Made by a program: the position numbers and the translations under genes. The notes beneath the pieces are model-generated. The model searched no databases and was not told the origin of the DNA. It saw only the letters and a program-made list of their open reading frames with translations. Positions 25,200-39,008 of a stretch of 64,000 nucleotides of DNA are shown here, piece by piece (positions within the stretch are counted from its first letter, which is position 1; the number at the start of each line of letters is the position of its first letter). The stretch covers positions 4,154,001-4,218,000 of the forward strand of contig NZ_CP163512.1 of NCBI RefSeq assembly GCF_041075285.1, read 5' to 3'. The stretch comes from Providencia rettgeri (GTDB lineage: Bacteria > Pseudomonadota > Gammaproteobacteria > Enterobacterales > Enterobacteriaceae).

Positions 25200-25718
25200 A
25201 TGGCCAGCAGAGGCGTAAATAAAGTAATTCTTATCGGTAACCTAGGACAAGATCCTGAAATCCGTTATATGCCTAACGGCGGAGCTGTGGCAAACCTGAC
25301 TCTGGCAACTTCTGAAAGTTGGCGCGACAAGCAAACTGGCGAGATGCGTGAAAAAACAGAATGGCATCGCGTGGTGATTTTCGGCAAATTAGCTGAAGTT
25401 GCGGGTGAATATCTGAAAAAAGGTTCACAAGTCTATATCGAAGGTTCTCTGCAAACGCGTAAATGGCAAGACCAAAGCGGTCAAGATCGTTACACAACTG
25501 AAGTGGTTGTTAATATTGGCGGCTCTATGCAAATGTTGGGTGGTCGTGGTGGCGATGCGTCATCACAAGGCCAGGGTGGTCAAGGTGGTTGGGGTCAACC
25601 TCAACAACCACAAGCCGCACAACAATTCAGTGGCGGCGGAGCCCCAGCTCGCTCACAAGCGGCTGCCCCGCAAACCAATGAACCACCAATGGATTTCGAT
25701 GATGATATTCCGTTCTAA
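25200..25718 (+). CDS. ssb: Single-stranded DNA-binding protein
   Basis: Homotetrameric ssDNA-binding protein of 172 aa. The OB fold spans about residues 1-110 (begins [20 protein letters not shown], with [18 protein letters not shown]), followed by a Gly/Gln/Pro-rich linker and the conserved acidic tip DFDDDIPF that recruits partner proteins. CAGGAG precedes the ATG. Divergent from uvrA as in E. coli. Confidence 0.98.
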
Positions 25719-25834: not shown

Positions 25835-26522
25835 TATGCCTGAAAAGATGTCGACCTATATTAGGACTCGTTAGGCTATAGTGGGTTTTACAAGTTAGCG
25901 GTTGAAAAGAGGAAGGGAAATTTGAACAAAGCGTTACAATTTTTGATTATAAAGTTGCGTTAAGTAACAAGTAAAGATCATAAAATCTACATAACCCTTA
26001 TTAAGAGTTATATGGGTGATATAAATATTGCATATAATCAATATCTTGTTGAGTTTTCATGTTCGCTATATTTTATCCTTAGTTGTAATTAATTAAATTT
26101 TGTTACTGGTCAGTAATGTGGATTATTGATAGAGAAATAAATTTATGTTTTGTTTTACATTTTTATATTTATTGACATAATTTATATTCTATTAGAATGA
26201 GGCGAGTGATATTAATATCAGTAAGGTTTAATTAACATTATGATAATATGGTTATTTTCACAATAAGTGGCATTTACTAATAACCAAATAAGCTGAAATA
26301 TTTTTTTTCAAAAAAACACATATTACAATTACTGTTGAATCTGAAACGTGGAAACCCAAGAAAATTATTTTTATCTTATTTTACTCTACATTGGGATTTA
26401 TATTTTTTGTTTTTGTTTTGGTTTTTATTAAAAATAATAAAATGTTTTGTTTTTATTTTTAATTAATCCTAAATAGGGATAAAAAAGTATAATGTTTATA
26501 GCATTATAAGGCTTAATGCTTG

Positions 26523-26540
26523 TCACTTTAATTAAAGTGA
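26523..26540. promoter_or_regulatory. 18-bp perfect palindrome upstream of the peptide gene
   Basis: TCACTTTAATTAAAGTGA is fully symmetrical and lies 124 bases before the peptide start. It could be a dimeric regulator operator; the regulator is not identified. Confidence 0.45.
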
Positions 26541-26593
26541 TATTGAATTTATATTATTGTTGTGCTTATAATCGCCATTGCCTTATTAGGTGA

Positions 26594-26617
26594 TTAGACT
26601 TTATTAATAAAATCTAA
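26594..26617. promoter_or_regulatory. Imperfect palindrome in the presumed 5' UTR of the peptide gene
   Basis: TTAGACTTTATT pairs with AATAAAATCTAA with one mismatch, 47 bases upstream of the peptide start. It may be an operator or an mRNA hairpin. Confidence 0.4.
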
Positions 26618-26664
26618 TTTATTCTAATTCAATTTTATTTAGTATTTAGAAATAAGGAAATCAT

Positions 26665-26853
26665 ATGAAACTGTTAAATGCTATTGATGCATCAAAGGTG
26701 ATTGGCGGAACAGCACCTGTATGTAATACATCTTATAATTCTGTTGTTGTTGGCGGCGGAAATGCAAGTTGTCAAGCAATCACTAAATGTACTGACAAGC
26801 ATGGTGAAGTTAGTTATAAAACGCAACCTGCTCCAGGTAAATGCCAAGCATAA
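26665..26853 (+). CDS. Double-glycine leader peptide precursor, microcin-like
   Basis: Peptide of 62 aa with AAGGAAATC just before the ATG. Residues 1-15 (MKLLNAIDASKVIGG) look like a class II microcin/bacteriocin leader: Gly-Gly at -2/-1, Val at -4, Asp at -8, Leu at -12. Cleavage would release a 47-residue core with cysteines at core positions 5, 21, 27 and 45, a GGG turn at 15-17 and lysine residues near the C terminus. It matches no bacteriocin I recognise. The downstream C39-peptidase exporter is its natural processing partner, and the DsbA-like protein could form its two disulfides. Activity (antibacterial, signalling or other) is inference. Confidence 0.75.
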   Translation: MKLLNAIDASKVIGGTAPVCNTSYNSVVVGGGNASCQAITKCTDKHGEVSYKTQPAPGKCQA

Positions 26854-26876
26854 TTAATTAGTTATAAGATAACTAT

Positions 26877-26914
26877 AAAGCATGCTGAAGAGTTGTCTTC
26901 GCATGCTTTTCTTT
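26877..26914 (+). terminator. Attenuator/terminator between peptide gene and export operon
   Basis: AAAGCATGC and GCATGCTTT pair, with GAAGA/TCTTC extending the stem around GTTG, followed by TCTTT. It lies 24 bases after the peptide stop and before the DsbA-like gene. Partial termination would give much more peptide mRNA than machinery mRNA, as is common in bacteriocin operons. Confidence 0.75.
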
Positions 26915-26933
26915 AATTAAATGGTAAAATTGC

Positions 26934-27611
26934 ATGCATAAGAAAATATCTAATTTAGCGATTGTTACGTATACCCTGTTCATTATTTTAATTTCTGTTC
27001 TTACAACAGTTTTGTTTTATCATATTTTTATTTTTGAAACATTTAAAGATAACAGTGAAAGCCAGAAGACATTTTTTGAATTCCCATTGGATAAAGTATC
27101 ATCGAGCCCAATAAAAGAAGATAATAGTATTATCGAAGTTATGTCCTACGGATGTTATTACTGCGCAACTAATAACGATGCTATCATGGAATTTGCCAAT
27201 CAGTTTTCACAAGAGGGAAATTTTAGTGTAATTCATTTGGCAAAAAAATATACAGGATTAGCGGCTTACTCTCCTATTTTTGCAACGTTAGAAGAAATGA
27301 ACATAGAGTCTGAACTGCGCTCAGATATTTTCAATGCTATTTTAAATGAAAACATCAATTTTAAAAATAATGACGAACTTTTGAATTGGCTAAAGCAACA
27401 CAATGTTGACACTGAAAAATACCTTGAAGTTAGTAAAAGCTCAGCTGTATCCGAAAAGTTAGATTACATGGAAAGTATTGCAGAGTTTTATGATATTACA
27501 GCAACACCAGCATTTATTATCAATAAGCGGTATGTCGTTTATCAAGACCGTGATTTTCCTGAGTTCACAAAATATATGGCTAAGCTTTTTGAGCAGAGTA
27601 AGCAGGAGTAA
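26934..27611 (+). CDS. Membrane-anchored DsbA-like thiol oxidoreductase
   Basis: Thioredoxin-fold protein of 225 aa. A single N-terminal hydrophobic segment (about residues 11-34) anchors it with the domain outside the cytoplasm. The redox motif CYYC is at 74-77 and the cis-proline motif ATPAF at 190-194 with Pro192, followed by IIN, all as in the DsbA/DsbG group. A helical insertion lies between. It ends 2 bases before the acyltransferase start. A four-cysteine peptide upstream suggests it oxidises that peptide in the periplasm. The start has a weak ribosome-binding site. Very AT-rich codon use compared with flanking housekeeping genes. Confidence 0.82.
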   Translation: MHKKISNLAIVTYTLFIILISVLTTVLFYHIFIFETFKDNSESQKTFFEFPLDKVSSSPIKEDNSIIEVMSYGCYYCATNNDAIMEFANQFSQEGNFSVIHLAKKYTGLAAYSPIFATLEEMNIESELRSDIFNAILNENINFKNNDELLNWLKQHNVDTEKYLEVSKSSAVSEKLDYMESIAEFYDITATPAFIINKRYVVYQDRDFPEFTKYMAKLFEQSKQE

Positions 27612-27613
27612 GC

Positions 27614-28570
27614 GTGGGGCGGTTTATTGTTGTTTGGCTAGTATTCAGTATCAAAAAACTAATTGATTTATTATCGCTATATACAGCTAAATTAAATAAT
27701 TTTTTTGTTGCCTGTTTTCGTATCATATTACGTTATATGCCGGCACCATTAGTATTAGCAATGACTTATGCGTTATGTCGTTTAGGGGTTATTGGCAGAA
27801 ATTACCGTAACCGAAGTAAAGTTGCTACTCAAAATTACCAATGTTTAACAGAGAAACCTGATTATATTGATGCGGCTTGGATTGCGGTACGGCGTTATAT
27901 ATTAGAAGAAGGGGCAACATGGGGGCAGAACAAACAAATTATGTCTCAAATTCAAGTTTGCACACGCAAACTTGATGAGGTAGTTGCCCCTCTGCACCAA
28001 AAAAATATACCCGTTATCCTCGCGCCATTACACATGGTTTCTGATGTATTAGCCACCATTGTGGGAGCGGGAACTACACCTCGAAACGCAACTGTTATTG
28101 TTTCTTCAAGTGCTGAGCAAGATAAATTTGATAATGCTGCTCGTATTCTTGGCGGCGTTAATCTGTCTTATTGCTCCATCCATCAAGAAGATAAATCTTT
28201 GGCAAAAGAGCTAATGAATTTAATGGCAGAAACGGCTTCAGGGCTGAAAAATATGATTATTTTTCCTGATATTACGCCTGACTATACGATTCATACAGGG
28301 GAAGGAATAAATAATAAACTCACATGTCGATTATTTAATCGCCCAGCAAAATTACACAGTGGGTTAGTTCGCTTATCTAGCGTGATTTCTGCACAAGTGG
28401 TTTTCTATAATTTGTATTGTAAAAACGGCATACAAATCAACATTCATGCACCAGTGCCAGCAAAAGATATTGCGACACAGATGCCAGTTATTATTGAAAA
28501 CGTGATTAGAGATTACCCGAATGATTGGCTTTTATGGCATAGCCATTCACTTTATTTTATTAATCATTAA
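27614..28570 (+). CDS. LpxL/HtrB-family acyltransferase
   Basis: Protein of 318 aa starting at GTG, with CAGGAG 5 bases upstream. It resembles lipid A late acyltransferases: an N-terminal hydrophobic region, ILAPLHMVSDVL where the catalytic His/acid motif is expected, an IFPDITPD stretch, and a C-terminal DYPNDWLLWHSHSLY matching the family's ending. The motif reads H140-x3-D144 rather than the usual H-x4-D/E, so the catalytic geometry may differ. Family members use acyl-ACP at the inner membrane; an ACP and fatty-acid enzymes are encoded in the same cluster. Acylation of the peptide or of a lipid carrier is inference. Confidence 0.7.
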   Translation: MGRFIVVWLVFSIKKLIDLLSLYTAKLNNFFVACFRIILRYMPAPLVLAMTYALCRLGVIGRNYRNRSKVATQNYQCLTEKPDYIDAAWIAVRRYILEEGATWGQNKQIMSQIQVCTRKLDEVVAPLHQKNIPVILAPLHMVSDVLATIVGAGTTPRNATVIVSSSAEQDKFDNAARILGGVNLSYCSIHQEDKSLAKELMNLMAETASGLKNMIIFPDITPDYTIHTGEGINNKLTCRLFNRPAKLHSGLVRLSSVISAQVVFYNLYCKNGIQINIHAPVPAKDIATQMPVIIENVIRDYPNDWLLWHSHSLYFINH

Positions 28571-28576
28571 GCACTT

Positions 28577-30754
28577 ATGAACAAGATTATCCCGAATACC
28601 GTTTATCAAGAAGAGACTAATGAATGTGGGTTAGCCTGCATTTCAATGTTGGCGCACACACAAGGTGTGGCAGTTTCATTGGATACTTTACGTGAGCGTT
28701 ATCCAGCAACAGATCACGGGACCTCTCTATTACAACTTTCCTCAATATTAAACGACTATGGAATTGCCACTGTGCCAATTCTTTTTGAACATGATGAACT
28801 TAATAGCATTCCTCTTCCTGCTATTTTGCATTATGGGGCAAATCATTTTGTGATTTTAGCCTATCGTAAAGGAAACAATGTATGTGTGATTAATCCAGCA
28901 ATTGGTCAGCAGTGGTTACCCTATTCGGCATTAAAATTAGAAATTAGCGGTTATGCCCTGATTTTAGATCCCAATCATCAATCAAGTTCAATTGAGACCT
29001 CGTCTTTAACCGATAAGCACCCGAAAACGCAGCGGCGTCCTCAGGGGATGATGAGTTTAAAAGAAACCAGCACTATATCGGGAATTTATTGGCTAATGCT
29101 TCTGACTTTTTTGGTCGGTTTGACGCTATTTATTATGCCAATTATGGTGAGTAATGCAGTCAATGAAGCCTTTTCAGATATAGAAAACGCAAATTTTCCC
29201 TATGGGTTATTTATTTTAGCTTTTGTGCTGGCATCTTTGTTAGCGCTTGGCGTTAGGATTATCACTGAAAAGTTTATTAAGCATTTTGTGTTAATTAATA
29301 GTGGAGCCGGTTTTTCTCGATTATTAAGTAATCCATTACGTTTTTTTGAAAAACGCGCGCCGGGTGATGTTTTTAGTCGGTTTATGGCTTGGCAAACCGC
29401 GATGACACAAAAAATCGAGCTTGATAATCAGCTACGAACAGACTGGGTGATTGGTATCATCGCCCTTGCTGTGATGTTTTGGATAGCCCCGGTTTTAGCG
29501 GCTATTTCGTCAGTTGGTGTGACCGTAATGGGGTTGATCAGTGTTTGGGCAATTATTCGAGACCGTTGGTACACCCAACAATTACAGTTAAAAACAGCTG
29601 CTCTAAATGATTTTTTTATGGAAACTCTTCAGGGGATCTTAACCGTTAAGGCGAGTGGTTTAGAAGAGCAACGAAAAATACAATTTGCGTGGTTAAGCCG
29701 TGACTTATTCACTTGCATGCAAAAAAGAAATATTTATGAACAAGTTAAAGGAACGCTATATCAGTTAACAGGTAGCTTGGAAATGGTGGTTTTTATGCTA
29801 GTCATACTGCCAATGGTTGCAAGCAAAATGATATCTCTAGGTGATTTTTTTGCATATAGCTTTATTCGCCAGATTTTCACGTCTTATATTACGCGAATTT
29901 TTTATTCAATAATTCATAAATCACAATTGCATATTATTGATACGCGAGCACACAGTTTATTTCCTGAACAGATTTCACTACCAGTGAGTTCTGCCTATGC
30001 TGAAGTATCAAATGGAAAGGCTTTGCACTTAAGATTTGAGCAATTAAGTTTTAGCTACGACCCAGCAAAACCAATTTTAAACAATATTTACTTGGATTTG
30101 CCAGCAAGGGCACAAATTGCGATTGTGGGAGAGTCCGGCGCAGGGAAAAGCACCTTACTGCGAATTATTGCTGGGTTGATACCGCTTCAAAGTGGAACTT
30201 GTTTTTCAGGAGAGGAAACACTTGTTCATCAGCAGCTTGCTCAATTAGTGTGTCTACAAAGCCAAGAAGATATTCTATTTAATGCTTCAGTTGGAGAAAA
30301 TATAACGCTATTTGCGCCAAATATTCAGGAAAAAGAGCAAAAAGTCATTAATCATTTGTTGAAAAGTCTTGTTTTGGATTCTGTTATTAACAGTTTGCCA
30401 GGTGGGATAAATGCGCTTATTAGGGAAAGTCATAGTGCTTTATCTTTGGGGCAACGTCAGCGTTTGTTATTAGCTCGTTCAATGTATAGCAACAAGCCAA
30501 TATTATTACTTGATGAGCCAACAGCTAATTTGGATGAAGAAACCGCAACTAAAGTGATCGACGCTATTCAAACTCATTGCCATAAAACAGGGAAAACGTT
30601 GGTTGTCGTCACACACAGTGACAACATCACCGCCAAGTTTGATACCGTTTATCAGATAGTCGATGGCGAACTGGCATTGAAAAATAACAGTAAGCAGGTT
30701 GGTTTTGTTCATCAAGCTTCTTCGTTGAGTCAACCCAATGAACAGCTGGCTTAA
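28577..30754 (+). CDS. Peptidase C39 ABC exporter (bacteriocin processing/secretion)
   Basis: Protein of 725 aa. Residues 1-130 form a C39 cysteine protease: Q11 (oxyanion hole), C17 in NECGLAC and H90 in HYGANHFVIL. The third residue, usually Asp in a DP motif, is Asn106 in INPAIG. About six membrane segments follow (roughly 165-430), then a nucleotide-binding domain with Walker A GESGAGKST (about 517), a variant signature SLGQRQ (about 622, normally SGGQ), Walker B ILLLDEPTANLD and the H-loop VVVTHSD. It should remove the double-glycine leader while exporting the peptide across the inner membrane. It overlaps the start of the macA-like gene by 17 bases. Confidence 0.92.
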   Translation: MNKIIPNTVYQEETNECGLACISMLAHTQGVAVSLDTLRERYPATDHGTSLLQLSSILNDYGIATVPILFEHDELNSIPLPAILHYGANHFVILAYRKGNNVCVINPAIGQQWLPYSALKLEISGYALILDPNHQSSSIETSSLTDKHPKTQRRPQGMMSLKETSTISGIYWLMLLTFLVGLTLFIMPIMVSNAVNEAFSDIENANFPYGLFILAFVLASLLALGVRIITEKFIKHFVLINSGAGFSRLLSNPLRFFEKRAPGDVFSRFMAWQTAMTQKIELDNQLRTDWVIGIIALAVMFWIAPVLAAISSVGVTVMGLISVWAIIRDRWYTQQLQLKTAALNDFFMETLQGILTVKASGLEEQRKIQFAWLSRDLFTCMQKRNIYEQVKGTLYQLTGSLEMVVFMLVILPMVASKMISLGDFFAYSFIRQIFTSYITRIFYSIIHKSQLHIIDTRAHSLFPEQISLPVSSAYAEVSNGKALHLRFEQLSFSYDPAKPILNNIYLDLPARAQIAIVGESGAGKSTLLRIIAGLIPLQSGTCFSGEETLVHQQLAQLVCLQSQEDILFNASVGENITLFAPNIQEKEQKVINHLLKSLVLDSVINSLPGGINALIRESHSALSLGQRQRLLLARSMYSNKPILLLDEPTANLDEETATKVIDAIQTHCHKTGKTLVVVTHSDNITAKFDTVYQIVDGELALKNNSKQVGFVHQASSLSQPNEQLA

Positions 30755-31907
30755 GCGTATTTTCAAACGGTCAAGGTTGTTCTTGATGCTGATGCTCATG
30801 TTGGTGTTTGCCATGGTGGCTTACATCACAGTGTTGCTGTCGCAGCCCCAACAAAATGAACAAACGCAAGTCGTCACAGTTGACCGTGGTGATATAGAAA
30901 AAGTCATTATGGTCACAGGGACATTAAAACCATCTGTACAAGTGAATGTAGGTGCCCAAGTTAATGGGCAAATAAAATATTTATATGCAAAACAAGGTGA
31001 TAAAGTCTTTAAGGGACAAATCCTTGCGGAGATAGACCCAGCCATTCAAAAATCTGATTTACGTAATGCTATCGCAAAACTATCTAGTGTGCGGGCTCAA
31101 AAAGCGTCTTCAGAAGCCATGTTACTTCAATATCGAAAAGCCTTTGAGCGACAAAAAAAATTACGCCGTGATGGTTCTGGTGTTGAAAGTGATTATGAGC
31201 AAGCACAAGCTCAGTATGAAGCGCAGAAGTATCAAGTAAAAATGAATGAAGCATTAATTGTTCAGTCTGAAATGGAAGTTGAAACAGCTAATGCTAATTT
31301 GAGTTACACCCAGATTATGGCGCCTATTGAAGGTGAGGTACTGGGGATAGTGGCAAATGAAGGACAAACTATTGTCTCCTCACAAACGGCTCCAACAATT
31401 TTAGTTTTAGCTAATCTTGATAAGATGCAAGTACAAACGCGTATTTCTGAAGCAGATATTCAGTTGGTAAATTCAGGGCAACCTTTATCTTTTTATGTAC
31501 TTGCAGATCCGGAAAAACGTTATGAAGGGACTATGGGGTATGTTCAGCCAGTACCACAAGAAGCCCTAGAAGAACGAAATATTACTAACCCAAATAATCA
31601 ACAAAATAATGCTGTGTATTACACAGGAACATTTGAGGTTGATAATAAAAACCGTGCGTTAAAAACGTCTATGACGGCTCAAGTCTTTATTCGTGTAGCT
31701 GAAGCAAAAGGGGTTGTTCGTTTACCCGTTATGGCGCTAGGTCGTTCTATTGCAGCTAACGAATATGAAGTAACCGTTTTTAAAGATAATCAACGTATAA
31801 CCCGAACAGTGACCATTGGGATCTCTGACCGTCAGTTTGTCCAAGTAGTTGATGGCGTTGATGAAGGTGAGCAAGTCGTTGTTACCAATGCAATAGGAGC
31901 AAATTAA
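30738..31907 (+). CDS. MacA-like periplasmic adaptor protein
   Basis: Membrane-fusion protein of 389 aa. A cytoplasmic start and transmembrane anchor (about residues 13-35) are followed by a barrel-sandwich domain (ITVTGTLKPSV-like region VMVTGTLKPSVQVNVGAQ and APIEGEVLGIVANEGQTI), an alpha-helical hairpin (about 105-185) and a C-terminal beta domain. The helical hairpin would contact the outer-membrane channel. It begins inside the C39 exporter gene and ends in a TAATG overlap with macB, indicating translational coupling. It is a paralogue of the housekeeping MacA type, dedicated to this cluster. Confidence 0.9.
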   Translation: MNSWLKRIFKRSRLFLMLMLMLVFAMVAYITVLLSQPQQNEQTQVVTVDRGDIEKVIMVTGTLKPSVQVNVGAQVNGQIKYLYAKQGDKVFKGQILAEIDPAIQKSDLRNAIAKLSSVRAQKASSEAMLLQYRKAFERQKKLRRDGSGVESDYEQAQAQYEAQKYQVKMNEALIVQSEMEVETANANLSYTQIMAPIEGEVLGIVANEGQTIVSSQTAPTILVLANLDKMQVQTRISEADIQLVNSGQPLSFYVLADPEKRYEGTMGYVQPVPQEALEERNITNPNNQQNNAVYYTGTFEVDNKNRALKTSMTAQVFIRVAEAKGVVRLPVMALGRSIAANEYEVTVFKDNQRITRTVTIGISDRQFVQVVDGVDEGEQVVVTNAIGAN

Positions 31908-33850
31908 TGGTTCCTATTATTACAGCGAAAAAAATCTCACGTGAATTTCTCGCGGGCACTCAGAAAATTTCTGTGCTGAAAAATATTTCGCTATCTATTT
32001 ATCAAGGTGAAATGGTGGCGATTATTGGGGCGTCTGGCTCGGGAAAATCAACGTTAATGAATATCTTGGGCTGTTTGGACAAACCATCAAGTGGGGAAAT
32101 CTATATTAATGACACCCCAGTGCATTTGGCAAATAGCGACCAGTTGGCAGAATTACGCAGTCAATATCTAGGGTTTATTTTTCAACGATATCATTTAATG
32201 CCGTATTTAACGGCGCAGGAAAATATGGCGATCCCTGCGCTATATACTGCAATGCCTGAACAAGAGCGCCAAGCTCGGATAGCGTCATTAGCCAAACAAC
32301 TGGGAATAGAAACACGGTTAACGCATAAGCCATTTCAACTCTCAGGGGGACAGCAACAACGTGTGAGTATCTGCCGAGCTCTGATCAATGGCGCGAAAGT
32401 CATTTTAGCCGATGAACCGACGGGAGCACTCGATAGCTCTAGCGGAAAAGCGCTTATGGGGGTTCTTCACCAATTACATCAGACAGGGCATACGATTATT
32501 ATCGTAACTCATGACAGAAATATCGCTAAGCAAACACAACGTATTATTGAGATTAGCGATGGGGAAATTATTGCTGATCATGCCAATGAAGTGAACAAAG
32601 ACGAAGCAGTTTATCCTAAGTTGCCCATTGTAAACAGCAACCAACGTGCATCGTTGTGGCGTAGAGGGCGGGAATCTGTGCGTATGGCATTTCGTGCGTT
32701 ACTTGGGCATAGAATGCGCGCTTTCCTTTCCATGTTAGGCATTATTATTGGTATTTCGTCGGTGATTTCTTCCATAGCCGTGGGGGAGGGCGCTAAACGC
32801 ACTATCATGGATGAAATCGGTAAGCTGGGCAAAACAACATTAGAAATTCGTCCAGGTATTGGGTGGGGAACGAAACGGCCGGACTTAGAAAGAGCGCTTT
32901 CCATTGATGATGTTAATAGCCTTTCTGCTCTTTCATGGACGAAATACGTTTCACCAGTGATAGGCACTGCGTCTGTGATTATTTATCAAGGACGAGACTC
33001 ATCTATTATGTTAAATGGTGTGTCGGAAAATTTTTTAGCTGGGCAAGGAATTAATATTATTCAAGGGGATAGGTTCCATCATTTAGACGTTATTAATAAA
33101 GAGCCTGTCTTAATTTTAGATGAGAGTAGTCGCCATATTTTATTTGGCCCAAATGAAAATCCACTCAATGAGCTAGTTCAAATTAATGGTACACCGTGGC
33201 GGATTATTGGTATCGCTAAAAAGACAGGTCCTAAAATGCTCAATAATTTTTTGATTGGTTGGGCACCTTACACATCCGTTTCACAGAGGATCACTGGAGA
33301 TAGGCCCTTTGAATCTATTTCTGTTAATTTTGCAGAAACGTTAGAACTGGGGCAAGCAACGTCTTTAGTCGAATCTCATTTACTCCAAACTCATGGAACA
33401 AAAGATTTTTTCATCGAATCCGATGAACAAATGGCGGCAACGTTACAAAAAACATCTGATTCCATGTCGTTATTAATTACCTCAATCGCGGGTATCTCAC
33501 TATTAGTGGGGGGAGTTGGGGTGATGAACATTATGCTTGTTTCAGTCACCGAACGGACTCATGAAATTGGTATTCGCTTATCTGTTGGCGCAAGGCCTTC
33601 CGATATCATGATCCAATTTCTGATTGAATCGGTCATGATTTGCTTACTTGGTGGGCTTATTGGTATTACAGGCGCGTTAATTAGTGGCGTCATTTTTTCC
33701 TATCTTACGGTTGAGTTTCGGATGGTTTTTACGCTGATGCCGATTTTATTTGCCTGTGGATTTTCCATCTTGATTGGCTTTATTTTTGGTTATTTCCCAG
33801 CATATCGCGCAGCGAAGCTTAATCCTACGGAGGCGCTGGCAAGAGAATGA
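31907..33850 (+). CDS. MacB-like ABC transporter
   Basis: Type VII ABC protein of 647 aa (E. coli MacB 648). An N-terminal nucleotide-binding domain has [24 protein letters not shown] and VILADEPTGALD; then one membrane segment (about 270-295), a large periplasmic domain and three C-terminal membrane segments with the LLVGGVGVMNIMLVSVTERT coupling region. MacB acts by mechanotransmission, driving periplasmic substrates through MacA and TolC; E. coli MacAB-TolC exports the small disulfide-bonded enterotoxin STII. Here the likely cargo is the matured peptide. Start overlaps the macA stop by 1 base; its stop overlaps the next start (ATGA). Confidence 0.93.
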   Translation: MVPIITAKKISREFLAGTQKISVLKNISLSIYQGEMVAIIGASGSGKSTLMNILGCLDKPSSGEIYINDTPVHLANSDQLAELRSQYLGFIFQRYHLMPYLTAQENMAIPALYTAMPEQERQARIASLAKQLGIETRLTHKPFQLSGGQQQRVSICRALINGAKVILADEPTGALDSSSGKALMGVLHQLHQTGHTIIIVTHDRNIAKQTQRIIEISDGEIIADHANEVNKDEAVYPKLPIVNSNQRASLWRRGRESVRMAFRALLGHRMRAFLSMLGIIIGISSVISSIAVGEGAKRTIMDEIGKLGKTTLEIRPGIGWGTKRPDLERALSIDDVNSLSALSWTKYVSPVIGTASVIIYQGRDSSIMLNGVSENFLAGQGINIIQGDRFHHLDVINKEPVLILDESSRHILFGPNENPLNELVQINGTPWRIIGIAKKTGPKMLNNFLIGWAPYTSVSQRITGDRPFESISVNFAETLELGQATSLVESHLLQTHGTKDFFIESDEQMAATLQKTSDSMSLLITSIAGISLLVGGVGVMNIMLVSVTERTHEIGIRLSVGARPSDIMIQFLIESVMICLLGGLIGITGALISGVIFSYLTVEFRMVFTLMPILFACGFSILIGFIFGYFPAYRAAKLNPTEALARE

Positions 33851-35205
33851 ATATAACCTCTATGATTGCCTATGGAAGCCTATTTTTACTCGCAGGATGT
33901 GGCGGCTTGATGAAAACAGAATATCAGCAGCCGAAACTAAACTTACCTGAGCAATGGCAACAAAACGTTCATCTATCTATCGATCAGGCGCAATCTATTC
34001 ATTTTCAAGACTCAGATTTAGCGCATCTCATCGTGCTGGTATTAGACAATAATACTGATTTAGCGTTGGCTGGAATAAAGCTAAAACAGGCAAGAGTAAC
34101 GGCTGGTTTAACAAATACGAATTTCACCCCCGATTTTTCGTTAACGGGAAGTGCATCAAACAGTAAATCAATAAAACACGGCACTCGCTCACAAGAAAAT
34201 TATAGCTCAGGATTATCATTAAATTATGAGCTAGATTTGTGGGGGAAACTTGCGCGGGTACGTGAAAAAGATGAGTGGGAAGCCATTGCCAGTGAATATG
34301 ATTTTCAGGCAACAAAGTTAACGTTGATAAGCACAGTTTCTCAGTTGTACTGGCGTATTGCATTACTCAAGCAGCAAATTGCTAACCAAATAGCAGGCAT
34401 TGAAATTGCTGAAAAAATATTAGCTCAAACAGAGTCTTGGTATTCTGCCGGTAAAATTGGTCAAATTGATGTACTGCATGCCAAACAAACAGTTATCACT
34501 CGTAAAAACGAATTAACTCGTCTTATTAACCAGAAAAATAATGAAAAAAATGCACTTATTTTGCTGCTCAACAACACGGAATTACCTGATTCTATTGATA
34601 TTAAACCCATCAATTTAGAGCAAAATATCACTGTCCATTATTCAGTTCCGTTAAGTGTTATCTCGACCCGACCTGACGTACGAGCAGCGGAGTTTCGATT
34701 GCGTTCTATGTTAGCCAACTCAGATGCAGCTCGGCTCAGCTTTTACCCGACTTTATCATTACAAGCAGCACTAAATATGGGAAGCGAACTAGTTAGCCAA
34801 TGGTTTAGCGATCCAACTCGGGTTGTCGGTGGGGCGATTTCATTACCTTTTATTCAGTGGAATACCGTACAACTCACTATCGAACAATCAAATCTACAGG
34901 TCCAGCAAGCTGGGGTTGAATTTCGTAAGAGTGCTTATAACGCCATCATGGAAGTCAATAATGCGATCAATGAGCGTACGATGGCTGAACATCAAAAATC
35001 ACAGCTTCTTCAAGGGTTATTGTTGGGCCAGCAGCGATTAAAACTGACAGAAAGTCGCTATAAGGCGGGCGTCGTTGACTATCAAACTTTATTAAATGCA
35101 CAAGATGATCTGTTGTCTATCGAAAATTCACTAGCACAGAACCAATATGATTACCTATATGCCACGCTACAACTTTGGCTAGCACAGGGCGGTGGGAACG
35201 AATGA
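33847..35205 (+). CDS. TolC/NodT-family outer-membrane efflux lipoprotein
   Basis: Outer-membrane channel subunit of 452 aa. It has a lipoprotein signal with lipobox LLAGC (Cys18) and two outer-membrane efflux-protein repeats, each with long helices and short strands; STRPDVRAAEFRLRSMLANS and ESRYKAGVVDYQTLLNAQ are typical of NodT/OprM-type proteins. It should trimerise and join the MacA-like adaptor. Start overlaps macB by 4 bases. A cluster-specific outer-membrane component suggests independence from the general TolC. Confidence 0.9.
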   Translation: MNITSMIAYGSLFLLAGCGGLMKTEYQQPKLNLPEQWQQNVHLSIDQAQSIHFQDSDLAHLIVLVLDNNTDLALAGIKLKQARVTAGLTNTNFTPDFSLTGSASNSKSIKHGTRSQENYSSGLSLNYELDLWGKLARVREKDEWEAIASEYDFQATKLTLISTVSQLYWRIALLKQQIANQIAGIEIAEKILAQTESWYSAGKIGQIDVLHAKQTVITRKNELTRLINQKNNEKNALILLLNNTELPDSIDIKPINLEQNITVHYSVPLSVISTRPDVRAAEFRLRSMLANSDAARLSFYPTLSLQAALNMGSELVSQWFSDPTRVVGGAISLPFIQWNTVQLTIEQSNLQVQQAGVEFRKSAYNAIMEVNNAINERTMAEHQKSQLLQGLLLGQQRLKLTESRYKAGVVDYQTLLNAQDDLLSIENSLAQNQYDYLYATLQLWLAQGGGNE

Positions 35206-35222
35206 TAAGAGGATATCAAGCA

Positions 35223-36461
35223 ATGTCACAATTTAAGCGAGTTGTAGTAACGGGATATGGTGCGGTGACTCCATTAGGAGGAACGGCAGCAGAATGTTGG
35301 CAAGCTATTATGGATAAGAAGTTAGGTTATCAATATGTGGATAAAACAGCGCAAGGTATTTCGTCTCATTTTTTCGGGCTTATTGATCAAGAACCGAGTA
35401 TGAAAGGGATCCCTGCGGTGATCCGCCGTCGTTTACCTCGCTATGCACGTTTAACCATGGCTGCGGCGCGTGAGGCGGTTCAAATGGCATTTGGGGAAGC
35501 CGTCCCGACGGATTACTATCCCCCGTTGTTGTGTGGGGCCATCATGGGAACGGGGTGGGCAGGGTTAGATGAAAGTTATTTATCCATTGATGAATTTAAT
35601 GAAACAGGCATGACCTCACCATTTAACTGTTTTTATTCTATGCCTAATGTGGCAACGGCTGCTTGTAGTCAATTATGGAACTTACGAGGTTATCAAAATA
35701 CTGCAATTGCTGCTTGTGCTACTGGGACTATTGCGATTGGTGATGCTTTTGAGTGTATTCGCAGTGGGAAAGCATCAATGATGTTGGCAGGTGCGGGGGA
35801 ATCATTACGTACAGATTGTGCCGTATGGAATATTGATATTTTAGGGGCATTGAGTCATGAAGCAGACAATATTGCACGTGCAAGCTGCCCATTTAGCGCA
35901 GATCGTAGTGGGTTTGTGTTATCGGAAGGTGCGGCAGTATTATGCCTTGAAGAAAGAGAGAGTGCGTTAAGCCGCGGTGCGATGATTCTTGGTGAAATAA
36001 CAGGTTATGCCAATTTCTCTGATGCTTTTGATTTTACTACACCCGCTGAGGATTGCATCGCACGAATCCAAACTATTCAATCGGCATTAAAGCAGGCCAA
36101 TATTCTCCCTGAGCAGCTCGATTATATTAATGCACATGGTACCTCAACGCCGCTTAATGATTTAAATGAAACGGAAGCATTAAAGCGTGCCTTGGGGGAT
36201 GTTGCTTATACAATCCCCGTCTCGAGTACTAAATCTTATTCTGGTCATCTTATTGCAGCTGCAGGCAGCTTTGAGGCGATAGTCTGCCTACAGGCTCTGC
36301 AAACTGGCGTCATGCCTGCCACTGCAAATCTGCATCACCCCGATCCACAGTGTGACCTTGATTACATTCCCAATGAACACCGTATTGCTGATATATCACG
36401 GGCACTCAATTTGAGTTTTGGATTTGGCGGTGCAAATGCGGCACTCGTTTTGGAAAAATAA
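35223..36461 (+). CDS. Beta-ketoacyl-ACP synthase (FabF-type ketosynthase)
   Basis: Condensing enzyme of 412 aa with an intact Cys-His-His triad: C165 in AIAACATGT, H305 in INAHGTSTPLND and H342 in KSYSGHLIAAAGS. It extends acyl-ACP by two carbons with malonyl-ACP. The start chosen is ATG at 35223 (MSQFKRVVVTGYG) with AGAGGA upstream; ATG at 35202, overlapping the previous stop, is an in-frame alternative. It begins a four-gene cassette with dehydratase, ACP and ketoreductase, and lies 1 base from the next start. No acyltransferase, enoyl reductase or phosphopantetheinyl transferase gene is present, so those would come from the host pathway or are not used. Confidence 0.9.
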   Translation: MSQFKRVVVTGYGAVTPLGGTAAECWQAIMDKKLGYQYVDKTAQGISSHFFGLIDQEPSMKGIPAVIRRRLPRYARLTMAAAREAVQMAFGEAVPTDYYPPLLCGAIMGTGWAGLDESYLSIDEFNETGMTSPFNCFYSMPNVATAACSQLWNLRGYQNTAIAACATGTIAIGDAFECIRSGKASMMLAGAGESLRTDCAVWNIDILGALSHEADNIARASCPFSADRSGFVLSEGAAVLCLEERESALSRGAMILGEITGYANFSDAFDFTTPAEDCIARIQTIQSALKQANILPEQLDYINAHGTSTPLNDLNETEALKRALGDVAYTIPVSSTKSYSGHLIAAAGSFEAIVCLQALQTGVMPATANLHHPDPQCDLDYIPNEHRIADISRALNLSFGFGGANAALVLEK

Positions 36462-36462
36462 C

Positions 36463-37254
36463 ATGAAAACATTATGTTATACCATGAAAGATGCAAATGA
36501 CTGGGCTGAATTTTCGGGGGACTATAACCCTATACACTTTGATCTTGCATGGGTCCAAGCTCGTGGAGGGAACCATTTAAGTGTACATGGGATGCGGGCT
36601 TTATTAGATGTAAAACACTTTTCGAGTCAGCAATTTTTGCAGGCAACTTTCGAGGCGGATCAGGCGATAAAATGTGTTATTCGCATTCGATATCCACTAT
36701 GGAACAATGTTAAATATCCGTTGGTGGCAGGGAATAAGCTCGGGTCATCGGCAATTTTAATGACTGGAGGGCAAAAGTGTATAACTTGCAATTTATCCTC
36801 TACTGATCGAACCGCATTAATACAAACACAAGATACGCAGTATATTTGTGCTAACGACGTATTAAATATGCAGAAAACCTTTGATGCTCGTTTTTCTAAA
36901 TTACCACTTTGGATTTTCTTAGATGCTATTGTTTTTAAACATTTAATTGAAAATGAAAATATTTTAAAGGGAAACCATCTTACCGATTGGTTTCCGAAAA
37001 ATGCCAACCTAAAAGATATTTTTGCACATTATTCTGTTGTGCAAACTCATCAAGAAGTGCAATTCGACCCGATATTTTTACAACCTGATCCCTTCAGCGG
37101 TAAAAGTGATGCTATCAAAATTGGCATACAGCCAGAAATTGTAACGGGGGATATCCATTCAGGGTTATTGGTTTGCATACAAATAGTCGCAGAGTATCAA
37201 CATAAATTGTTAAGCAATTCAATAACATTAAAAATAAGTTCAACACATGCATAG
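36463..37254 (+). CDS. MaoC-like (R)-hydratase/dehydratase
   Basis: Hot-dog-fold protein of 263 aa. The N-terminal FSGDYNPIHFD (D20, H25) followed by VHGMRALL is the catalytic signature of MaoC/PhaJ-type (R)-specific hydratases, which here would dehydrate 3-hydroxyacyl-ACP to the 2-enoyl form. The C-terminal half is less conserved and may be a degenerate second hot-dog. The start is ATG at 36463, 1 base after the ketosynthase stop. The remainder is AT-rich and lacks other known motifs. The chemistry suggests unsaturated or polyene chains when no enoyl reductase is supplied. Confidence 0.75.
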   Translation: MKTLCYTMKDANDWAEFSGDYNPIHFDLAWVQARGGNHLSVHGMRALLDVKHFSSQQFLQATFEADQAIKCVIRIRYPLWNNVKYPLVAGNKLGSSAILMTGGQKCITCNLSSTDRTALIQTQDTQYICANDVLNMQKTFDARFSKLPLWIFLDAIVFKHLIENENILKGNHLTDWFPKNANLKDIFAHYSVVQTHQEVQFDPIFLQPDPFSGKSDAIKIGIQPEIVTGDIHSGLLVCIQIVAEYQHKLLSNSITLKISSTHA

Positions 37255-37274
37255 CGTATAAAAAGGAAAAGTAC

Positions 37275-37523
37275 ATGAGTGATTATCAAACAATTTACAC
37301 TAAAATTAATGCAATGATCTGTGATGCAAAAGACCTCGATGAAGATATTGATGCAGAGCAGACACTCGATCAAATTAAATTCGACAGCCTTGATTATGTA
37401 GAATTAATGGTACTCGTAAAGCGCGAATTTAATGTCACACTTACCGCAGATTTTTTCATTGAACATCCCACAATGACGATCAAGGAAATGATCGAGTATA
37501 TTAGTAAGGAGTCAAGTTCGTAA
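37275..37523 (+). CDS. Acyl carrier protein
   Basis: Acidic protein of 82 aa with the phosphopantetheine attachment motif FDSLDYVEL (Ser38) and the helix II acidic face of ACPs. It is distinct from housekeeping AcpP. AAAGGAAAAG precedes the ATG and the stop is followed after 1 base by the ketoreductase gene. It would carry the growing chain for the neighbouring ketosynthase, ketoreductase and dehydratase, and donate it to the LpxL-type acyltransferase. Confidence 0.92.
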   Translation: MSDYQTIYTKINAMICDAKDLDEDIDAEQTLDQIKFDSLDYVELMVLVKREFNVTLTADFFIEHPTMTIKEMIEYISKESSS

Positions 37524-37524
37524 T

Positions 37525-38262
37525 ATGTCTACTCAATGGATTTTAATTACTGGTGGGAGCCGTGGTATAGGGCGATCACTGGTTATCGAATTGCAAAAAA
37601 ATTGGCATGTCGTATTTACGGGGCGAAGTGAAGAGGGGTTAACAGAAACCTTGAACGCAGTAAGTAACAATGCTTCTGGCTCATGGGTTAAAGGTTATGC
37701 CTGTGATGGAAAAGATGAAAAGCAAGTTGAGCAATTGGCGCATAAATTACTCAATTTATTTGGTGCGCCGAGTGCGATTATTCATAATGCGGGCATTGCT
37801 AGAGATGCTCTTCATATTCATCAAAATGCGGACATTTGGCAGGATGTAATGGATAATAACTTGATGTCAATTATTAATTGGGATCGTCATTTAGTGCCTG
37901 CTATGTTGCTAGAAGGGCGAGGTTCGATTGTATTAATGTCCTCTGTGACAGGATTAAAGGGCAATATTGGGCAAACCGCGTATGCCGCAAGTAAAGCCGC
38001 TATGTTCGGTATTGCTCGATCCTTGGCGCATGAGGTAGGGCGTTTTGGTGTCCGTGTAAATTGTGTGGCTCCAGGCTTGATTGATAGCGACATGACCAAG
38101 GCTATTCCTGACGCTAAGTTAAAAGCAATGTTAAGAACTATTCCTTTACGTCGTCTTGGTAAACCAGAAGAAGTGGCTAAAACCGTTGAATTTTTAATCA
38201 GTGATAATAGTCGATACTTAACGGGACAAACTATTACGTTAGATGGTGGTTTTAGTGCTTAA
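37525..38262 (+). CDS. 3-oxoacyl-ACP reductase (FabG-type SDR)
   Basis: Short-chain dehydrogenase of 245 aa. The NADPH-binding TGGSRGIGRS is at 9-18, HNAG at 87-90, and the catalytic Ser140, Tyr153 and Lys157 (YAASK) are in place. The end LTGQTITLDGGFSA is typical of FabG. It would reduce 3-ketoacyl-ACP made by the cluster ketosynthase. Last gene of the cluster; a hairpin at 38515 follows after about 250 AT-rich bases. Confidence 0.92.
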   Translation: MSTQWILITGGSRGIGRSLVIELQKNWHVVFTGRSEEGLTETLNAVSNNASGSWVKGYACDGKDEKQVEQLAHKLLNLFGAPSAIIHNAGIARDALHIHQNADIWQDVMDNNLMSIINWDRHLVPAMLLEGRGSIVLMSSVTGLKGNIGQTAYAASKAAMFGIARSLAHEVGRFGVRVNCVAPGLIDSDMTKAIPDAKLKAMLRTIPLRRLGKPEEVAKTVEFLISDNSRYLTGQTITLDGGFSA

Positions 38263-38600: not shown

Positions 38601-39008
38601 TCAAGCTACTTTAGGTTCCAGCAGTAAAGGGTCATTTTGACTTTCACCGGAAATTCGGTAGATTGACGGCGATGTGCCTAAATAAGCGCGAAATCGCTTT
38701 GCAAATGATTGTTGGGAGTCAAATTGATATTTTAATGCAATATCAATTACTTGTAATTCTGTGGTGCAGAGATCCTTTGCCGCTTCACAAATCCGTCTTC
38801 GGCGAATATATTCCCCCAAAGGCATACCAACAACTTTACGAAATACTCTTTGTAAATGCCACTTTGTATATCCAGATTTTAGTGCAATATCATCCAGTAG
38901 TAGACGACTAGTTAAGTTCATTTCAATCCAAACGATTATTTCATTAACAACTGTAGATTGAAACTCTGTGTATTTCCCACTATAAGGGGCTGGAATTTCT
39001 TTATACAT
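38601..39008 (-). CDS. MarA/SoxS/AarP-type AraC-family activator
   Basis: Transcription activator of 135 aa consisting of two helix-turn-helix motifs (LLLDDIALKSGYTKWHLQRVF and VIDIALKYQFDSQQSFAKRF) and no effector domain. This architecture is that of MarA, SoxS and RamA. Size fits AarP, the Providencia stuartii activator of the chromosomal aac(2')-Ia gene, which is the likeliest identity if the organism is Providencia; I cannot confirm it. Such regulators bind marboxes and raise efflux and lower porin expression. It is convergent with the peptide cluster, so control of the cluster is possible but not shown. Confidence 0.85.
   Translation of the reverse strand: MYKEIPAPYSGKYTEFQSTVVNEIIVWIEMNLTSRLLLDDIALKSGYTKWHLQRVFRKVVGMPLGEYIRRRRICEAAKDLCTTELQVIDIALKYQFDSQQSFAKRFRAYLGTSPSIYRISGESQNDPLLLEPKVA

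Follow-up and report, generated by a model that had tools for sequence, protein, structure and literature searches.

A block of eleven genes, all on the plus strand at positions 26665-38262 of a 64,000-nucleotide stretch of Providencia rettgeri DNA (the window; contig NZ_CP163512.1, positions 4,154,001 to 4,218,000, from a genome assembled as one contig of 4.35 Mb), appears to make and export a small lipidated, disulfide-bonded peptide, a reading to which we assign a probability of roughly 0.6. The block is strongly supported as a single route to a secreted peptide, because the genes co-occur in a conserved order, their products diverge in a correlated manner, and the number of cysteines in the precursor tracks the presence of a DsbA-like gene. 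The initial annotation of this DNA had named the same genes, and the open reading frames (ORFs) and profile searches recover each of them at the position and on the strand given there; its proposal of a single pathway stands as regards a secreted-peptide unit, judged by co-occurrence and order, whereas the acyl transfer, disulfides, and secretion that it included are steps we infer.

Precursor family and conserved gene order

The first gene (26665..26853, +) encodes a precursor of 62 amino acids in which a short leader of the double-glycine type, MKLLNAIDASKVIGG (26665-26709; 15 residues, with GG at residues 14-15), precedes a 47-residue core carrying four cysteines (C20, C36, C42, and C60), just as initially annotated. 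In searches against Pfam, NCBIfam, PHROGs, and PADLOC, DUF4762 alone exceeded its cut-off (53.9 bits against 27 in Pfam, where a match to DUF4124 stayed below its own) and no function was assigned; among 71 proteins from a protein search, those bearing names were called DUF4762 family or hypothetical protein.

Scanning one genome per species with patterns of the cluster's acyltransferase yielded 58 loci, which span Providencia, Klebsiella, Hafnia, Trabulsiella, Enterobacter, Citrobacter, Erwinia, Pantoea, Rahnella, Yersinia, Serratia, and others. By tblastn, 49 of these match the whole set of eleven genes in order; the remaining nine comprise one that ends with its contig (L064), five Serratia loci without the MaoC and ketoreductase genes, and three Rahnella loci without the DsbA-like gene. 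Such recurrence of the ordered arrangement (49 of 58 loci) is beyond chance. A precursor is present in 56 of the 58, and one of the other two ends with its contig. Sixteen other places with a DUF4762 gene were examined with their flanks, and the cluster adjoins 15 of them: all eleven genes are found in 13, L028 has no ketoreductase, and the L020 stretch was too short, its contig, re-read as L036, matching all eleven. Pairwise distances of five proteins across 53 loci correlate at r 0.67-0.95, the highest permuted value being 0.18 (L064, L082, and L093, which are cut or broken, L086, which has no precursor, and L047, whose precursor duplicates that of L044, were left out).

The precursor set comprises 60 sequences from 58 sources (the window, 56 scanned loci, and the plasmid locus L102), including a second copy present in two loci; 59 are distinct. 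Alignment A3 holds 56 of these, with L084, L085, and L102, which lack the cysteine columns, omitted from it yet counted within the 59, and all 56 are DUF4762 members. Every distinct precursor has a GG leader (59/59, starts having been chosen with GG in mind), core lengths range from 35 to 54 residues, and the only invariant core positions in A3 other than cysteines are K45 and G47. The motif [DN]KxG occurs in all 59, TDKHG holding K45 in the window precursor, and in L091 the lysine within it is the only one of the core. Tandem, differing precursors stand before a single maturation gene set at L042:8796-9247 and L046:8807-9237, and a genome with a complete cluster elsewhere holds an orphan precursor as well (L118:3447-3644), with the motif CKGKFG.

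An RNA hairpin resembling an attenuator or terminator is predicted between the precursor and the remaining genes (26877..26909, +), the stretch 26854-26925 folding at z -4.60. Among eight loci picked by the author for folding, a long stem follows the precursor in all eight, with differing sequences, and z is below -2 in seven (-1.55 to -5.57 in the seven loci other than the window). Peptides of this kind usually combine a plentiful precursor message with attenuated downstream genes, and the predicted hairpin probably keeps the genes after the precursor at a lower level of expression.

Acyltransferase, cassette, and export machinery

The acyltransferase (27614..28570, +; GTG start) has the predicted fold of lipid A and mannoside acyltransferases (LpxL/PatA-like) by structure match, with the limit that VIA-align re-examined Foldseek matches only, so that families off that list remain candidates. 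In a profile comparison of 76 acyltransferase sequences with 30 PF03279 proteins from 31 loci (a 559-residue one was omitted, and each was taken as the longest frame across the match, from stop to stop), the acyltransferase histidine aligns with the conserved histidine of the PF03279 proteins and its aspartate meets their acid after a one-residue gap. When only two lipid A acyltransferases were compared, the signal was insufficient (probability 4.7), and a PDB sequence search with the acyltransferase alignment gave one match, set aside as chance (E 1.1). PF03279 (Lip_A_acyltrans) matches at E 0.01 or better were obtained for 8 of 13 members, the best at 4.6e-5. The HX3D motif (H140/D144 in the window) is invariant in 57/57 loci, across which 45 positions of the protein do not vary. 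The enzyme is thus labelled LpxL-like because of the structure match and the profile comparison, its Pfam score being below the cut-off; by these predictions, it is LpxL-like in fold, yet belongs to a divergent group and is no standard PF03279 member.

The last four genes form a putative fatty-acid cassette consisting of a FabF-type ketosynthase (35202..36461, +), a MaoC-type dehydratase (36463..37254, +), an acyl carrier protein (ACP; 37275..37523, +; motif DSLD), and a FabG-type 3-ketoacyl-ACP reductase (37525..38262, +). The mechanical ORF starts at 35175 (ketosynthase) and 36418 (MaoC) probably lie too far upstream, and likelier starts are 35202 or 35223 for the former and 36463 for the latter. 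The ketosynthase, ACP, and SDR domains exceed their cut-offs; the dehydratase named in the initial annotation keeps the GDxNPxH motif (GDYNPIH), although its Pfam score of 18.5 bits falls short of the cut-off of 27. Against the fabF model the ketosynthase scores 384 bits (cut-off 493.75), and its identity to the genome's two further ketosynthase matches is 35% and 32%. In loci reached through the precursor or the acyltransferase, aligned columns are invariant for ketosynthase Cys-His-His and the ACP serine (58 loci each) and for MaoC Asp/His and ketoreductase Ser-Tyr-Lys (53 loci each; a 34-bit MaoC match in L087 was dismissed as chance, leaving 53 loci with MaoC, not 54). Simple text patterns recovered fewer (47/58 for each of the two ketosynthase histidine sites, 47/53 for the ketoreductase, 42/54 for DsbA, and 53/58 for the acyltransferase); by aligned columns, these failures are pattern misses except in broken fragments (the L082 DsbA and L093). 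Ketosynthase and ACP are found in 58/58 loci, whereas MaoC and ketoreductase are missing together from the five Serratia loci and the ketoreductase from G034, where FabG and FabZ of the host could take over from the absent enzymes. Their constant retention suggests that ketosynthase and ACP set the chain and deliver it. No malonyl transferase or enoyl reductase was recognised among the eleven genes.

The DsbA-like thiol oxidoreductase (26934..27611, +), predicted to be membrane-anchored, has a CYYC site, a T-P loop, and a hydrophobic N-terminus in translation, and matches the Pfam family DSBA at 38.2 bits (cut-off 25.6). CxxC is present in 53 of 54 such proteins, the 54th being a broken fragment in L082. 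Each of the 56 distinct precursors with an adjoining DsbA gene (a fragment in L082) has four to six core cysteines, whereas those with no DsbA neighbour in the retrieved stretches around the loci, to which the search was confined, have two (L084, L085, L102, and L105) or none (L117); as L084 and L085 are close relatives, these make about four independent cases.

Export would depend on four components: a C39-peptidase ABC exporter (28577..30754, +), a MacA-like periplasmic adaptor (30738..31907, +), a MacB-like ABC transporter (31907..33850, +), and an outer-membrane channel lipoprotein of the NodT/TolC type (33847..35205, +) with a LAGC lipobox. The C39, MacB_PCD/FtsX, HlyD, and OEP domains are over their Pfam cut-offs, MacB exceeding all three of its own (PF12704, PF02687, and PF00005); MacA and MacB score below the NCBIfam equivalog cut-offs (PRK11578, 278 bits against 342; PRK10535, 674.1 bits against 966). 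The parts of the MacAB-TolC pump are thus represented, MacB with periplasmic domain, FtsX, and ATPase, together with MacA. The C39 domain keeps its cysteine and histidine and has asparagine (NPA.G) at the third triad position in 57/57 loci with a residue there, where aspartate is usual. The overlapping junctions initially annotated here measure 17 bp (C39/macA), 1 bp (macA/macB), and 4 bp (macB/channel); channel and ketosynthase also overlap by 4 bp if the latter begins at the ATG at 35202.

Variant loci, distribution, and genomic setting

Some loci depart from the common arrangement. On the Serratia marcescens plasmid pE41 (L102:3982-14745), a 53-residue precursor with two cysteines and the motif DKDG is followed by MacA, MacB, channel, ketosynthase, MaoC, ACP, ketoreductase, acyltransferase, and C39 genes, and no DsbA gene was found; linkage therefore outlasts reshuffling of the gene order. 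L117:3393-10269 has a cysteine-free GG precursor, acyltransferase, C39, MacA, and MacB genes, and L105:9765-15700 a proline-rich GG precursor, an acyltransferase-like gene, an HlyD-type adaptor, C39, and a TolC-type channel (both precursors were picked by eye from the GG leader). The cassette was found in neither, so acyltransferase and C39 exporter remain together where it is missing; the distant acyltransferases of these two loci match no Pfam family. Rahnella laticis has two clusters, L080 and L086, in one genome, one of them without DsbA or a recognisable precursor.

Overall, the family is seldom found: DUF4762 occurs in 7/394 genomes of the order and the acyltransferase in 5/398 of the phylum, one of the latter being distant. 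In a set of 60 genomes around the window, precursor and acyltransferase occur together in 10 and are both missing from 49, and one (G039) has a distant acyltransferase only; within the genus, both genes are present in 8/24 genomes. Plasmid copies were found in 14 of 72,556 records, ten of them from E. coli (two equal-length pairs may be the same plasmid), and 12 of the 14 are typed as conjugative or mobilizable. Three E. coli IncF plasmids, pMTY9812_NA1, pCFSAN083828_2, and pPSS-15_1 (L099, L100, and L103), have the genes from DsbA to ketoreductase, and upstream of these we read ORFs resembling remnants of insertion sequences or transposases. The Salmonella and Chimaeribacter copies look decayed. 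A blastn search of 5426 E. coli genomes with a Citrobacter ketosynthase-to-ACP segment returned a single 148-base piece in three genomes, all on plasmids; DNA similarity in these genomes is too low for the search to be very informative.

In the window, the block is bounded by ssb (25200-25718; named from its sequence) and a soxS-like regulator of the AraC type (38601-39008, minus). The lowest G+C among the 2-kb steps of the window, 0.299, falls at 26001-28000, covering the precursor, the DsbA-like gene, and the start of the acyltransferase gene, against 0.36-0.47 in the other steps; low G+C is often seen in acquired DNA. A consensus scan gave a promoter-like site before the precursor (TTGAAT-18-TATAAT, 26543..26572, +), which is weak evidence because the region contains 38 such sites where shuffles predict 46.1.

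Proposed pathway, alternatives, and significance

Under the reading of a lipidated, disulfide-bonded peptide, the DUF4762 precursor would be made first, with the hairpin dampening the later genes. The dedicated ACP would carry an acyl chain shaped by ketosynthase, MaoC, and ketoreductase, while the host fatty-acid pathway would supply malonyl transfer and, if needed, enoyl reduction. At the cytoplasmic face of the inner membrane, the LpxL/PatA-like enzyme would shift this chain to the precursor, most likely onto the K45 side chain in TDKHG. The C39 domain would then cleave after GG and the ABC exporter carry the core over the inner membrane; the DsbA-like protein would form two disulfides in the periplasm, as the link between cysteine number and DsbA gene suggests, and MacA-MacB with the lipoprotein channel would expel the product, perhaps a microcin-like bacteriocin. 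The fullest form of this proposal, to which we would give slightly less than even odds, describes a widespread and partly plasmid-borne group of Enterobacterales peptides whose invariant lysine is N-acylated by an LpxL/PatA-fold enzyme with a shortened HX3D active site, using a chain from a devoted ketosynthase and ACP, followed by disulfide formation and export through C39 and MacAB.

Several observations weigh against this reading. The initial 'LpxL-family' label is weaker than given and draws on fold and profile comparison; the window enzyme scores 16.9 bits against PF03279, below the cut-off of 22.3, and belongs to a divergent group with HX3D in place of the HX4(D/E) that is the catalytic motif of the LpxL/LpxM family. 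Instead of marking the acyl site, [DN]KxG could be a turn or a motif for a receptor, and three precursors outside the set of 59 do not have it, namely the two most distant (L105 and L117) and the L118 orphan. Many cores hold five cysteines, so not every cysteine can pair unless the peptides dimerise. The 58 loci were found through the acyltransferase itself and are therefore a biased sample, and genes are broken or only partly matched within some of the 49 loci (e.g., C39 in L036 and L067; several in L082 and L093). Homologous loci without the precursor, which the initial annotation regarded as telling against its proposal, are few among the scanned loci, yet no precursor was found in the DsbA-less Rahnella locus L086, and none was recognised in the upstream stretch of any of the three E. 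coli plasmids named above (3/3); conversely, one orphan DUF4762 gene (L031/L118) has no cluster beside it. Correlated distances fit block inheritance of an operon and are by themselves no proof of mutual action. No immunity gene was recognised by eye among the window ORFs, where no systematic search was made and small ones are easily missed. Acylation, disulfides, export, and activity are all deduced from the genes.

Other readings divide the same genes differently. The lipidated peptide may be a signal, surfactant, or host-directed factor instead of a bacteriocin, which changes the role of the product only; this is a credible minority view, favoured by the lack of a recognised immunity gene and by the animal-, insect-, or plant-associated habit of many genera with the cluster, while the pairing of a double-glycine leader with a C39 exporter is typical of bacteriocins or microcins. 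It is unlikely that the peptide is exported without lipid and that the acyltransferase and fatty-acid genes alter the producer envelope (e.g., lipid A) for self-immunity: the fold does match acyltransferases for lipid A and mannosides, nothing else was recognised as an immunity gene, and the distant loci retain little beyond precursor, acyltransferase, and exporter, which fits immunity and maturation alike, but a dedicated ketosynthase and ACP in every one of the 58 loci would be a costly route to immunity. Bacteriocin immunity proteins also usually change along with the precursor, whereas the acyltransferase is highly invariant (a weak point, as a lipid A enzyme would be conserved too). Still less probable are two products, with the acyltransferase and fatty-acid genes making a lipid or polyene that is exported in its own right, and the peptide merely co-exported or acting as a partner. 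Aryl polyene clusters do contain an LpxL-like acyltransferase alongside ketosynthase, dehydratase, ketoreductase, and ACP; they also have aromatic starter enzymes, a paired ketosynthase/chain-length factor, and a thioesterase, whereas the present cluster has a lone Cys-His-His ketosynthase, none of those other genes being recognised among the eleven. Acyltransferase, C39, and precursor moreover stay together where fatty-acid genes were not found.

A lipidated, disulfide-bonded peptide would place the cluster among known systems as follows. Class II microcins (colicin V type) share the double-glycine leader, C39 ABC exporter, adaptor, outer-membrane channel, and small cysteine-bearing core; the present cluster adds a MacB-type pump, a DsbA-like protein, an acyltransferase, and a fatty-acid cassette, its adaptor is MacA-like, and an immunity gene was not recognised in it. 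In HlyC-type systems, an acyl group passes from ACP to an internal lysine of a type I secreted protein through an enzyme with a GNAT-like fold; the ACP-to-lysine idea is the same, whereas the enzyme here has the LpxL/PatA-like fold. From LpxL/LpxM and PatA, the cluster enzyme differs by HX3D, its sub-cut-off PF03279 score, and its linkage to a peptide precursor. Among ribosomally synthesized and post-translationally modified peptides (RiPPs) lipidated by GNATs, such as selidamides, nostolysamides, microvionin, goadvionins, and lipoavitides, the likeness lies in a fatty-acylated ribosomal peptide, expected here; the cluster has no recognised GNAT (Pfam and profile scans found none among the eleven proteins) or lanthionine enzyme and instead has an LpxL/PatA-type fold with its own ketosynthase and ACP. 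Nostolysamides bear the acyl group on lysine, and GNATs lipidate lanthipeptides at the N-terminus or at ornithine/lysine side chains (PMC13060382). DAG-RiPPs, also ribosomal and lipidated, are described as using the lipoprotein pathway (PMC12636315), with a lipoprotein signal and Lgt/LspA/Lnt in place of the double-glycine leader seen here. A report on class II microcins of Serratia marcescens mentions modification genes, among them a toxin-activating lysine acyltransferase gene near putative microcins, and, in its main text, no MacB (PMC13101503). No publication on the cluster was recognised in the open-licence literature, a scope outside which most subscription papers fall.

Lipidated ribosomal peptides and microcin exporters are already known, and the novelty would lie in the kind of acyltransferase; to our knowledge, no lipid A-type acyltransferase has previously been described acting on a ribosomal peptide. 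If the proposal is true, it would give a function to Pfam DUF4762, add another kind of enzyme that lipidates ribosomal peptides beside GNATs and the lipoprotein pathway, and provide a RiPP with a type II fatty-acid cassette of its own. Natural losses, of DsbA together with cysteines and of MaoC and ketoreductase but not ketosynthase and ACP, open every step to direct testing. With clusters in many genera of Enterobacterales and on mobile plasmids, a lipopeptide with an antibacterial or signalling role may so far have escaped notice in these bacteria.

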